This document shows, one piece after another, positions 13,217 to 16,622 of a stretch of 64,000 nt of DNA (its first letter is position 1; each line of letters begins with the position of its first letter). The notes under the pieces are model-generated. The model searched no databases. It worked only from the letters and a program-made list of their open reading frames with translations, and had not been told where the DNA came from. Origin of the DNA: Amniculibacterium aquaticum (GTDB taxonomy: Bacteria > Bacteroidota > Bacteroidia > Flavobacteriales > Weeksellaceae); assembly GCF_003852705.1 (NCBI RefSeq), contig NZ_REFA01000014.1, positions 1 through 64,000 of the forward strand, given 5' to 3'. Position numbers and translations under genes: made by a program.

Positions 13217-13633
13217 TTAGTTGGGCGAATTGATGGCACTCGTAATACTATAGAATGCTCCCCAAGCCAATATACTCAGAATGAGTACCCAAACCCATAC
13301 CGGAATGGTTCTTGGGTTTTCGCTTCCTTTGATAATAAAATTTTGGTTTTTACCCGTGTCATAAGCATTGAGCATGAGAGGTACTGTCCCGTTGATGGTA
13401 TCGTTGTTGGAAAGGCCATCAACATGGATTACAGGGCCGTTTTGCACCGTAAAGGGAATAATTTTTATCCCCTCTTTATTTTCAAATTTACTAATGATTT
13501 TTAGTTGATGGTCTCCGTCGGTTAGCTTGGTGGTATCCAACTGAAAGACAATGGGCGGATCTAGATTGGCAATGGGGTTGGGTTCGTCATCGATATAGAT
13601 CAAAACGGTAGTTTTTGGAGTATTCATATTCAA
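13217..13633 (-). CDS. Oxidase-operon protein with Ig-like domain and C-terminal anchor
   Basis: This 138-residue protein has a soluble beta-rich domain, including GPVIHVDGLSNNDTING and the strand pattern of a bacterial Ig-like fold, and one C-terminal membrane helix (RTIPVWVWVLILSILAWGAF). There is no heme motif. It is the last gene of the cbb3 operon, 6 bp after the previous one. Its position suggests an accessory or assembly subunit, perhaps taking a FixH/CcoG-like role, but I cannot assign it. Confidence 0.6.
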   Translation of the reverse strand: MNMNTPKTTVLIYIDDEPNPIANLDPPIVFQLDTTKLTDGDHQLKIISKFENKEGIKIIPFTVQNGPVIHVDGLSNNDTINGTVPLMLNAYDTGKNQNFIIKGSENPRTIPVWVWVLILSILAWGAFYSITSAINSPN

Positions 13634-13639
13634 GATGGT

Positions 13640-13900
13640 TTAAAAATTAAGAATACTATTTTTAATGTGTTGGTCTTTCTTACTTTCTGGTTTTACAATA
13701 TATTTTACAAAATAAAATACGGTAAGAAAAGAAATCACCACAATAATTCCTACGGCAATCCAGTCCCAAAAACTTTGTGGTCCTGCTCCATGCGTTAGTC
13801 CTCTGGTAATTTTGGGTTGTTTTAGATCGCAAGCCTCACACGCTTTATAAAAGGTATGTAAGAAAAGTAGAATTGCAATTAGATATGTTTTTGTTTTCAT
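13640..13900 (-). CDS. Small membrane subunit of the cbb3-type oxidase operon
   Basis: This 86-residue protein has a hydrophobic N-terminal segment that could be a signal or a helix, a CEAC pair of cysteines, then GLTHGAGPQSFWDWI and one clear transmembrane helix (IAVGIIVVISFLTVFYFVKY). Its ATG overlaps the TGA of the CcoO-like gene (ATGA), so translation is coupled. It may be a CcoQ/CcoS-like small subunit; the cysteines could bind metal. The function is inferred from context only. Confidence 0.6.
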   Translation of the reverse strand: MKTKTYLIAILLFLHTFYKACEACDLKQPKITRGLTHGAGPQSFWDWIAVGIIVVISFLTVFYFVKYIVKPESKKDQHIKNSILNF

Positions 13901-14889
13901 TTTATTTTATCCATTATGGTTTTAACATCGTCGGCGGTAACGGTTTTTCCGCTGTTGCCCCAACTGGTTCTTTCGTGATTGATGATGGCTGCTACTTCTT
14001 CAGGTTTTAAATTGGCTGTTGTACCCACAGGAGGCATAACGCCATAGGCTGGAGCAAGTCCGTTGTAACCTTTCATGATGATGGTGATGTACAATTCCAG
14101 ATCTTCACCGGTAACGACTTTGTCCCCTTTTAGCGGTGGGAAAGCTCCAGGAACTCCTTCGCCAGAACTTTGGTGGCAAGAAGCACAATGGGTGTTGAAG
14201 AGGTTTTCGCCATCCGGAAGGGTAGAGGCACCGCTAGAAGCACTTACTTTCACTTCTTTTTTGTATAAAAATTCTTTCGGAGGCATGGATTGTGGCAGTT
14301 CCGTTTGTTTTAAAGATAGCAGATAGGCTACCAGATCTTTTGCATCTTGAGAAGCTACAATTTTTCCAGTGATTCCTGCTCGAAATTTTTCAGGTACTTT
14401 TACTTCAACATCGTGTACGCCCAGTTCTGGTTTTACGATAAATAACCATTTGTAAGAGGGCATTACCGATTCTGGGACTACTGCTCTGGGATTGTAAAGG
14501 TGGGTGTATTGCCAATCGGTGCTTGCTTGTCGGTTTCCGACATTGGTAAGGTCGGGCCCTGTTCTTTCGGATCCCAAAAGATTGGCGGTATTTTGCCAAA
14601 CATTCATTCTTTTGTTTCGGGCATAATCGGCTGCAATACTGGGTCTGTTCCCAAAAACCTGATCCATATCTACATTTCTTACCTGTTGGGTATGACAGGC
14701 AATACAACCTTCAGAAATATAGATTTCTTTACCTCTTTGTTCGGATTCGGTCAAGGGTTTAGAGTTGGGCAAAGGTTGGTAGTCCCTCATGCTTTGCAAA
14801 GAAGGGAAAATGCATATAATAAGTGCTAAGCCTAAAAATAAAGCAAGAGCAGTGGTGAATAATTTTTTTTGATTGTTAAAAAAGTCCAT
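13897..14889 (-). CDS. ccoO: cbb3-type oxidase CcoO fused to a second cytochrome c domain
   Basis: This 330-residue membrane-anchored diheme protein feeds electrons to CcoN. After an N-terminal helix (about 10-32), the CcoO part has heme motif CIACH (about residue 62), TQQVR, ERTGPDLTNVG and the ligand region PESVMPSY. From about residue 215 a separate class I cytochrome c domain follows, with heme motif CASCH and a Met-containing MPPVG region. Normal cbb3 operons have monoheme CcoO plus diheme CcoP; no CcoP gene is present here, so the fused domain probably replaces part of it. It lies 5 nt after ccoN. Confidence 0.88.
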   Translation of the reverse strand: MDFFNNQKKLFTTALALFLGLALIICIFPSLQSMRDYQPLPNSKPLTESEQRGKEIYISEGCIACHTQQVRNVDMDQVFGNRPSIAADYARNKRMNVWQNTANLLGSERTGPDLTNVGNRQASTDWQYTHLYNPRAVVPESVMPSYKWLFIVKPELGVHDVEVKVPEKFRAGITGKIVASQDAKDLVAYLLSLKQTELPQSMPPKEFLYKKEVKVSASSGASTLPDGENLFNTHCASCHQSSGEGVPGAFPPLKGDKVVTGEDLELYITIIMKGYNGLAPAYGVMPPVGTTANLKPEEVAAIINHERTSWGNSGKTVTADDVKTIMDKIK

Positions 14890-14894
14890 TTCCT

Positions 14895-16622
14895 TTATAT
14901 TTGTTTAGCATGAACGATATTTAGAATTTCTTCTGGAGTATCGGGGATTTTTATTTCTTTTTTAGGAACAACCATTCTGTAAAAATTGTAAGCAAATACA
15001 AAATGCGAAATCCACATCAAAGTACCTCCAACAGCCCTAAAGACCCAATACGGAACGGATTGTACCACTCCTTTTATAAAAGGCTCTTTGTCCATCCACA
15101 TCAATCCTTTTTCTGTAGAACCAATCATTAACGAGAATATGTAAATCATTAACCCAACCAAAGCGAGCCAAAAGTGCAAACCTACGGTTAAACTGGGCGG
15201 TTCTAACGAAGTGATCCTTGGCACCAAGGTATAGGTAAATGAGAACAGCATGAATGTGATAATTCCGTACATGGTCATGTGAGAGTGAGCCACGGTAAAA
15301 TCGGTGAAATGCCATACCAAATTGGCCCATCTAAAAGCTTCGGCAGTACCTTGCAGAGATCCTGAAAAATAAAAAATTACAGAAACTACATAAAAAGGCA
15401 TGATGTAACTCCATCTCAGCCTGTGCCATTTTCCTTTCATGGTCATCATAAAGTTGAAACTGCCCGCAACAACAGGGACTACCATATCCACACTGGCAAT
15501 TATGGCTACGGTTTGTAACCACCAAGGAATGGGACTGAAAATAAAATGATGGGTACCTATTAAGGTATAAAATAATATTTGAGTCCAAAATGCGAGTACA
15601 CTCAGGCTGTAGGAATATACCGGTGTATCCAATTCTTGGGGTAGGAAGTAGTACATTAATCCTAGATTGAGAAACATAAACCACATCCCAACCGCTTGGT
15701 GCATATAGAAACCTTGAACGATGGTTTCGCCCAATCCGTCTTGCCAAAACGGTAAATAACCCACCAAGACAATAACGGCTATAAACATCATGGCTGCAAC
15801 AATATACCAGTTCGATACATAGATGTCTTCGGTCTTTCTGGTCTGTATGGTTTTTATGAAATTGTACAAACTAAGTCCAATGCCCATGGCAAATAGTCCC
15901 ATAACAGGCCAAATATATTCCCTGTATTCGCCACCACTGTTGTTGATGCCTAACATAAGACAGATACTGCCGATCAGTACAGCACTTGCCATTAAAACTA
16001 AACTGTAATATCCCAGCTTGATGCTGTGCAATTTGGTATTTCCGACTCTTGGTACTACAAAATAGGATAGACCAACCATTGCGGTGGAAGCCCAACCCCA
16101 AAATACCATATTGGTATGCACCGGTCTTAGTCTTCCGAAACTGAGCCAAGAAATGTGATCCGAATCTGGGGCGACAAATTTTATACCCAAATATTCTCCC
16201 ACACTGGTCCCGATGATGAGCCAAAGAATGCTAATGCCTAGAAACCAAAGGATTAGTTTTTTTTCTTCATCAGGGATGGTTAGCCTTGCTTTTCTTTGCC
16301 TTTTGGAAGCCAAGAACCGAATATCATGGATCTCCTTGGATTCTGTAATCAATCCTCTTGGATCCTCTACCGGATTTGGGTTGGCCAATTCGTTTCCGCC
16401 GAGTTGAAATTCCAATTCTTTTTGTCTTTTTTCTAAAGCTTGGATTTCATCTTCAGGTAAGGATTCGATTTTTTGAAGGATTTGTTTTAATTCTCTTTTC
16501 TTTAGGGTGTCCGAAATCATTCTATTGATTTTGATGATCACCAGGATCAACATGAAAATTACGGGAATTAAGAGAAGAAAAATGGTAATTTGAACACTGC
16601 TTTCGCTTAAATTATTATCCAT
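14895..16622 (-). CDS. ccoN: cbb3-type cytochrome c oxidase catalytic subunit CcoN, N-terminally extended
   Basis: This heme-copper oxidase reduces O2 in the inner membrane, usually at low oxygen. It has 575 residues against about 475 for a standard CcoN. The catalytic part keeps the low-spin heme ligand region VHTNMVFWGW, the CuB/Tyr region FYTLIGTHHF, and HFTDFTVAHSHMTMYG with the heme ligands. About 115 extra N-terminal residues form one membrane helix (TIFLLLIPVIFMLILVIIKI) and a charged coiled-coil linker (LKQILQKIESLPEDEIQALE). The Tyr next to the HH pair argues for oxidase over nitric oxide reductase. It is first in a four-gene operon. Confidence 0.92.
   Translation of the reverse strand: MDNNLSESSVQITIFLLLIPVIFMLILVIIKINRMISDTLKKRELKQILQKIESLPEDEIQALEKRQKELEFQLGGNELANPNPVEDPRGLITESKEIHDIRFLASKRQRKARLTIPDEEKKLILWFLGISILWLIIGTSVGEYLGIKFVAPDSDHISWLSFGRLRPVHTNMVFWGWASTAMVGLSYFVVPRVGNTKLHSIKLGYYSLVLMASAVLIGSICLMLGINNSGGEYREYIWPVMGLFAMGIGLSLYNFIKTIQTRKTEDIYVSNWYIVAAMMFIAVIVLVGYLPFWQDGLGETIVQGFYMHQAVGMWFMFLNLGLMYYFLPQELDTPVYSYSLSVLAFWTQILFYTLIGTHHFIFSPIPWWLQTVAIIASVDMVVPVVAGSFNFMMTMKGKWHRLRWSYIMPFYVVSVIFYFSGSLQGTAEAFRWANLVWHFTDFTVAHSHMTMYGIITFMLFSFTYTLVPRITSLEPPSLTVGLHFWLALVGLMIYIFSLMIGSTEKGLMWMDKEPFIKGVVQSVPYWVFRAVGGTLMWISHFVFAYNFYRMVVPKKEIKIPDTPEEILNIVHAKQI

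Follow-up and report, generated by a model that had tools for sequence, protein, structure and literature searches.

A cbb3-like oxidase operon without ccoP in Amniculibacterium aquaticum: its lineage in the Bacteroidota and a possible link with nitric oxide

What kind of respiratory enzyme is encoded by a cbb3-like operon that carries an enlarged CcoN, a CcoO fused to a second cytochrome c domain and no gene for CcoP? This question is raised by positions 13217-16622 of a 64,000-nucleotide stretch of contig NZ_REFA01000014.1 of Amniculibacterium aquaticum (the window), and it has been approached here by comparison with the rest of the genome and with related loci across the Bacteroidota. The oxidase very probably represents a real and distinct lineage of the C family of haem-copper oxygen reductases, standing beside canonical CcoN, and we lean towards regarding it as an auxiliary, O2-reducing enzyme that would be induced by nitric oxide (NO) or related stress.

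The operon and its lineage

The segment is filled by four genes on the minus strand, and none of their open reading frames (ORFs) contains an internal stop:

14895-16622, minus strand: CcoN-like catalytic subunit of 575 aa, with COX1 (PF00115) matched at residues 123-535 (266.7 bits)
13897-14889, minus strand: CcoO-c, a CcoO-like protein of 330 aa that carries an additional cytochrome c domain (class I) at its C-terminus and has two CxxCH motifs
13640-13900, minus strand: single-pass membrane protein of 86 aa, with a leader-like start, a CxxC motif, one helix and a tail containing HIK
13217-13633, minus strand: protein of 138 aa from a TTG start (136 aa from the ATG at 13627), with an immunoglobulin (Ig)-like beta-sandwich and a C-terminal membrane helix

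These genes are packed as an operon, with a gap of 5 bp between the CcoN and CcoO-c genes and an overlap of 4 bp between the CcoO-c gene and that of the 86-aa protein, and no ccoP is found near them. The coordinates and the four-gene layout, with its extended CcoN, its CcoO-cytochrome c fusion, its two small membrane proteins and its lack of CcoP, are those given by a sequence-only reading of the window, which had also named a frameshift or sequencing artefact as a way in which the fusion might be refuted; since the same layout recurs across many genomes, the fusion is no artefact. In CcoO-c, Pfam recognizes FixO (PF02433) at residues 5-168, with 110.9 bits and a cut-off of 29.6, and Cytochrom_C (PF00034) at 226-305. 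The best curated-model matches of both large subunits are cbb3 models, but the scores lie below the equivalog cut-offs of ccoN (256.9 against 583.15 bits) and ccoO (107.8 against 200.65 bits). The fusion as such is shared with NF011054 (PRK14486, "putative bifunctional cbb3-type subunit II/cytochrome c"), with which the window's CcoO-c aligns over 23-288, whereas its 111.2 bits stay below the cut-off of 447. A search for CcoO-c across loci, with a length filter of 250-420 aa that excludes one-haem CcoO, found the protein at 95 of 98 loci, four being duplicates; strict patterns for the Met ligands, present in 48 and 75 of the 95, were too narrow and were left unused.

The active site was compared in an alignment of 92 family rows, three of 95 having been dropped (two canonical CcoNO and one fragment), and residues are numbered as in P. 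stutzeri. The His ligands of haem b, haem b3 and CuB (60, 207, 257, 258, 345 and 347) and the helix VII tyrosine, Tyr251, which could form a cross-link, are kept in 92 of 92. Every one of the 92 family rows, the most distant one (genome G120) included, has Gln at position 323, which we take to be the site of the Glu that the literature places at the proximal His of haem b3; all 21 canonical rows, which were recognized by a motif at 337-341 in 20 of 25 regions, have Glu there. For cbb3 oxidases, PMC8398457 describes a conserved Glu that bonds with the His of haem b3 and is considered to lower the potential of the haem. Metal-binding His, Tyr251 and a CcoO-type haem c subunit, which together characterize a C-family haem-copper oxygen reductase in the broad sense, are all present, and the family would by these features reduce O2 with cytochrome c; from canonical cbb3 in the strict sense the family is set apart by Gln in place of Glu323 and the window's proteins by their scores below the ccoN and ccoO equivalog cut-offs. 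Set beside the canonical enzymes (CcoNO with CcoP in Bacteroidota; P. stutzeri, 3MK7), the family thus shares the COX1 core, the haem and CuB ligands, the helix VII tyrosine and the CcoO-type haem c subunit, but differs in Gln323, in the additional CcoN helix and linker, in the second haem c of CcoO, in a haem-less Ig-like protein and in the lack of CcoP from the operon. The conservation also bears on the idea that the locus no longer encodes a catalyst and is either in decay or at work as a haem sensor. No role is known for either small protein, which would suit this idea, but the ORFs of the window are open and all 92 rows, from many Bacteroidota families, have every metal ligand, and we hold the idea to be highly improbable.

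In a core tree of 52 rows, among them 27 family rows picked from the 92 and 20 of the 21 canonical rows (one canonical row being non-Bacteroidota), 26 of the 27 family CcoN rows form one branch, with a Shimodaira-Hasegawa-like approximate likelihood ratio test (SH-aLRT) value of 99, and the 20 canonical rows, P. stutzeri included, form another (100). The distant row from G120 (L023) falls outside both branches; long branches may meet in this tree and make its deep placements unsure. A pattern scan of species genomes gave 88 relatives, and the 80 loci listed among them are all from Bacteroidota by name, except for one bin named Algicola, whose taxonomy is Pseudoalteromonadaceae. When genomes were drawn evenly across the phylum, 14 of 395 had a family match at 1e-80 or better. 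No description of the lineage was found in the literature searched, including PMC5492636, PMC12569097, PMC8756737, PMC10359470, PMC8780969, PMC8398457 and PMC4816578; PMC5492636 refers to an "unknown group" among the haem-copper enzymes of Muntyan 2015, which may be this lineage. Annotation by family would file the oxidase as plain cbb3.

Subunits, haems and the question of CcoP

The sequence-only reading had credited CcoN with about 115 extra residues, made up of an added membrane helix and a coiled-coil linker. Residue 12 of P. stutzeri CcoN aligns with residue 122 of the window's CcoN, which puts the excess at about 110 residues, and the helix is backed by a hydrophobic stretch at 5-40 and a modelled helix at 8-53; the coiled coil, however, is not borne out by the model, in which a second short helix (57-70) is followed by a stretch (72-112) that mostly has a predicted local distance difference test (pLDDT) score below 50. 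Residues 1 to about 120 are thereby modelled as an N-terminal membrane helix and a flexible linker. The length of this region varies in the family: among 93 CcoN rows, the number of residues before the GRLRP motif is 150-169 in 32 (the class of the window), 190-229 in 29, 270-309 in 23 and 40-79, that is with no extension, in 8, one row being unscored. The aligned rows of the 190-229 class start with a leader-like stretch, and a second membrane-helix module is visible in the 16 longest rows of the 270-309 class, to which L047, L013 and L073 belong. At L012 the extra CcoN module looks like a separate overlapping ORF.

The two small proteins each have a single hydrophobic segment. In the 86-aa protein, for which Pfam and the curated family models give no confident match, it lies at 43-71, and in a cluster of 78 sequences the CxxC motif is present in 70 and HIK in 67. 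In the 138-aa protein it lies at 107-132, and the model places strands between residues 6 and 89 and a helix at 110-132. This protein matches PF17957 weakly (E-value 0.003, below the family cut-off); in a fold search none of 619 matches reached an E-value of 0.001 or less, many Ig/FN3-like sandwiches being found at Z 5-6, with a best value of 6.3, and these matches point to no function.

Distant relatives suggest an origin for the second haem of CcoO. In the Bacteroidia form of the operon both haems are on CcoO and none is on the Ig-like fourth protein. At seven loci (L155-L161), which belong to classes of the phylum other than Bacteroidia, the fourth protein has the same domains and then, past the membrane helix, a cytochrome c; CcoO has two haems there too, and CcoN has no extension. 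G120 has a one-haem CcoO and a separate protein of 249 aa, with one haem after a hydrophobic stretch. In a tree of haem domains, 22 picked CcoO tail domains and the seven Ig-protein domains form one branch (95), the G120 domain comes next (81) and 13 canonical CcoP domains stand apart, and in a BLAST search with the window's CcoO tail the best Ig-protein domain was matched at 1e-35, against 1e-7 for the best canonical CcoP. Since the kin of the tail domain is the haem domain of the Ig protein and not canonical CcoP, it was probably from a third subunit of the operon itself that a haem domain was copied onto CcoO, the subunit then losing its own in Bacteroidia. The domain order in the seven distant relatives makes the 138-aa protein a likely haem-less form of this subunit. 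A point against such an identity is that comparison of the haem-less Ig protein with a CcoP profile gave a probability of 22%, so that homology of the membrane part is not supported. In CcoP, a cytoplasmic segment precedes the last helix; the Ig domain would be placed likewise, and is probably cytoplasmic, because no leader-like start is seen on the Ig protein.

A CcoP is encoded elsewhere in the genome, and it is on this that the next alternative turns. There are four COX1 proteins in all, the window's CcoN included. The second is a canonical CcoNO fusion on another contig, with a CcoP of 292 aa and a ccoG-like gene; the third is a cytochrome c-dependent NO reductase (cNOR) with norC and norQDE-like genes, and the fourth belongs to a divergent NorC/NorB-like pair, the names of the ccoG and nor genes being given by likeness and not by family search. 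The divergent pair lies on the minus strand of G000 contig C3 (L007, 7957-9372 and 9317-9700); in its NorB-like protein the metal His and the Glu that cNOR has in helix VI are missing, and Met takes the place of the second His of helix X (HAM instead of HGH). A relative in Chryseobacterium lacus (L136, 17910-19241) is without the same residues too (HTM). The sole CcoP match of the genome is the one beside canonical ccoNO, on the different contig. The sequence-only reading had set two haems in the fused chain against three in a standard enzyme, a contrast that does not hold in this phylum: canonical CcoP has one CxxCH in 13 of 13 cases, the genome's own included (CcoP was chosen by motif and found in 13 of 25 canonical regions), so that two c-haems are the local norm and no reduction.

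The enzyme might then be a cbb3 isoform of the ordinary low-oxygen kind, borrowing its CcoP from the canonical set, with the neighbours in relatives, described below, being incidental. The search for a standard ccoNOP set elsewhere, which the sequence-only reading had proposed, did find canonical CcoNO with CcoP, and this, the cbb3 models as best matches of CcoN and CcoO, and the fact that no stress gene is seen among the window's own neighbours all speak for borrowing. The case that the reading had named as refuting its view, a ccoP located elsewhere whose product goes with this CcoN, may hold in this genome, with its single CcoP. Yet CcoO-c has a second haem domain of its own, Glu323 is replaced in every family row, both subunits fall below the equivalog cut-offs, and one genome, G416 (Hymenobacter rubripertinctus), has the family oxidase with no canonical CcoNO and no CcoP match, although this is a draft in which a gap is possible. 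The only COX1 proteins of G416 are an aa3-type one and the family oxidase, and it has one FixO match; G415 and G417, from the same genus, have CcoP (2e-23) and canonical CcoNO too. Judged by ORF length and score, CcoNO is missing from 4 of 36 family genomes (G250, G294, G120 and G416), and no CcoP match was found in G416 or G120, the two of these searched for CcoP. On balance we consider this reading unlikely.

Neighbouring genes in relatives and the link with NO

Rrf2 regulators and truncated globins are established NO genes, and both are frequent beside the operon in relatives. Neighbours were counted at 93 family loci and 22 canonical ccoNO loci, mostly within flanks of 6 kb, a duplicate Gramella locus (L085, the same as L137) having been removed; before its removal, truncated globin stood at 45 of 94 and Rrf2 at 46 of 94. 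A truncated globin is found at 44 of the 93 family loci and at none of the 22 canonical ones (Fisher 1e-5), and Rrf2 at 45 of 93 against 3 of 22 (Fisher 0.003); when the first locus per genus or lineage is taken (n = 36), the counts are 18 for globin and 20 for Rrf2. Among 79 named loci, the gene directly upstream of the operon is Rrf2 in 35 and Crp in 8, and a globin lies directly downstream in 35. Counted by genome, globin is present in 7 of the 14 that have the family oxidase, against 70 of the 381 that lack it (p 0.009). Pfam backs one representative each of Rrf2, Bac_globin, hemerythrin, ScdA_N with hemerythrin, flavohaemoglobin and Crp. The row in Gramella AN32 reads hemerythrin, ScdA_N/hemerythrin, probable quinol NO reductase (qNOR), membrane protein, Rrf2, the operon and globin, where the presumed qNOR has a COX1 match; in a genome from a different class, CcoN, CcoO-c, the small protein, globin and Rrf2 follow one another. 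At L134 (Chryseobacterium cucumeris) the operon lies between a probable qNOR region and canonical ccoNO, within one 20-kb stretch. Many-pass membrane proteins adjoin the operon at L015 (2977-4098, no Pfam match at E 0.01) and L137 (5571-6785).

Several results weigh against a link with NO. Globin and an adjacent regulator are absent at the window's locus and at its two closest relatives, L024 and L025, and a truncated globin match is absent from the window's genome altogether. Other markers are not significantly commoner than at canonical loci, namely hemerythrin (23/93 against 2/22), ScdA_N/hemerythrin (16/93 against 5/22), flavohaemoglobin (16/93 against 1/22) and Crp (17/93 against 8/22), and copper nitrite reductase is found in 4 of 14 family genomes and 60 of 381 others (p 0.26). 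The loci that carry the markers are not independent, as they include one identical pair and 15 pairs at least 97% alike in the core. The marker models were built from the family loci's own neighbours, and two controls, L146 and L149, extend as far as a family operon or close to one; when both are left out, Rrf2 stands at 2 of 20 canonical loci and hemerythrin and flavohaemoglobin at 0 of 20. It is thus the relatives, and not the locus in the window, that suggest a connection with NO. As copper nitrite reductase and nosZ both score above their cut-offs in the window's genome, it can probably make NO itself. An FNR-type box with one mismatch, 84 bases before the ATG, was dropped as a candidate element: 6 of 79 upstream regions had one, against 67 of 1580 random stretches.

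The chief rival to an oxidase is an enzyme whose main role is NO reduction, a cbb3-like CuB/tyrosine centre having been turned to NO as Glu323 was lost and the proton path weakened. cNOR and qNOR are defined by a helix VI Glu beside a metal His and by the absence of the tyrosine. They have a core related to that of the family, and some relatives of the window's locus have stress or denitrification neighbours, but the family has the CuB/tyrosine site (Tyr251 and the three CuB His in 92 of 92), is without acidic residues in all 92 rows over 203-216, the part of helix VI that holds the cNOR Glu, and is separate on the tree. Five residues we take to belong to a K-type proton path: Ser240 is replaced by Gly in 82 and His243 by Ala in 89 of the 92 rows, which favours NO reduction, but Tyr223 and Tyr317 remain in all 92 and Tyr237 in 91, and the CcoN of the window keeps Ser240. 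The stress-gene neighbours in relatives fit NO reduction as well, and a further NOR-like COX1, judged by ORF length and score, occurs in only 10 of 36 family genomes, that of G399 being of the divergent NorB-like type; the window's genome, however, already has its cNOR with norQDE-like genes. As to chemistry, cbb3 enzymes are stated to reduce NO to N2O (PMC8780969). Haem-copper enzymes have also been reported as alternative NO reductases (eNOR, sNOR and gNOR), and those have, according to PMC8756737, a cupredoxin second subunit and a replaced tyrosine, whereas the family has FixO with cytochrome c and keeps the tyrosine. Taken together, these points leave a main role in NO reduction unlikely.

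Proposed function and significance

The genes, the ligands, the separate branch, the kinship of the haem domains and the neighbours in relatives are observed; the auxiliary, stress-induced oxidase that we prefer would work as follows, all of its elements (electron path, subunit make-up, O2 as substrate, NO induction and function) being inferred. Electrons would enter from a periplasmic cytochrome c at the added haem c, at the C-terminus of CcoO, and move on through the original haem c of that subunit and through haem b to the centre of haem b3, CuB and tyrosine, where O2 would be reduced to water. Gln at 323 would remove the acidic partner of the proximal His of haem b3, and the haem should be retuned as a result. 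The operon would be induced by NO or related stress through regulators of the Rrf2 type, sometimes of the Crp type, and the oxidase would keep respiration going, and may also consume NO, while the main cbb3 is inhibited. A bolder version, which we hold to be doubtful, has a separate functional branch of the C family, older than or sister to all the canonical cbb3 sampled, whose NO-regulated enzyme would take O2 and NO alike as substrates at a CuB/tyrosine centre in which the haem b3 Glu is replaced; the haem of the third subunit would have moved to CcoO and left a haem-less Ig-domain anchor as its remnant.

The replacement of Glu323 by Gln, the separate branch, the likely origin of the second haem, the likely third subunit of 138 aa and the stress-gene neighbours in relatives had all been missed by the sequence-only reading. 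The lineage provides a natural experiment on the purpose of the CcoP haems and of the haem b3 Glu in cbb3 oxidases: every sampled member is without the Glu and the outer haem has been relocated, so both can be changed while no metal ligand is lost. Should the genes that adjoin the operon in relatives be a fair guide, the family would be a respiratory enzyme with which Bacteroidota live with NO.

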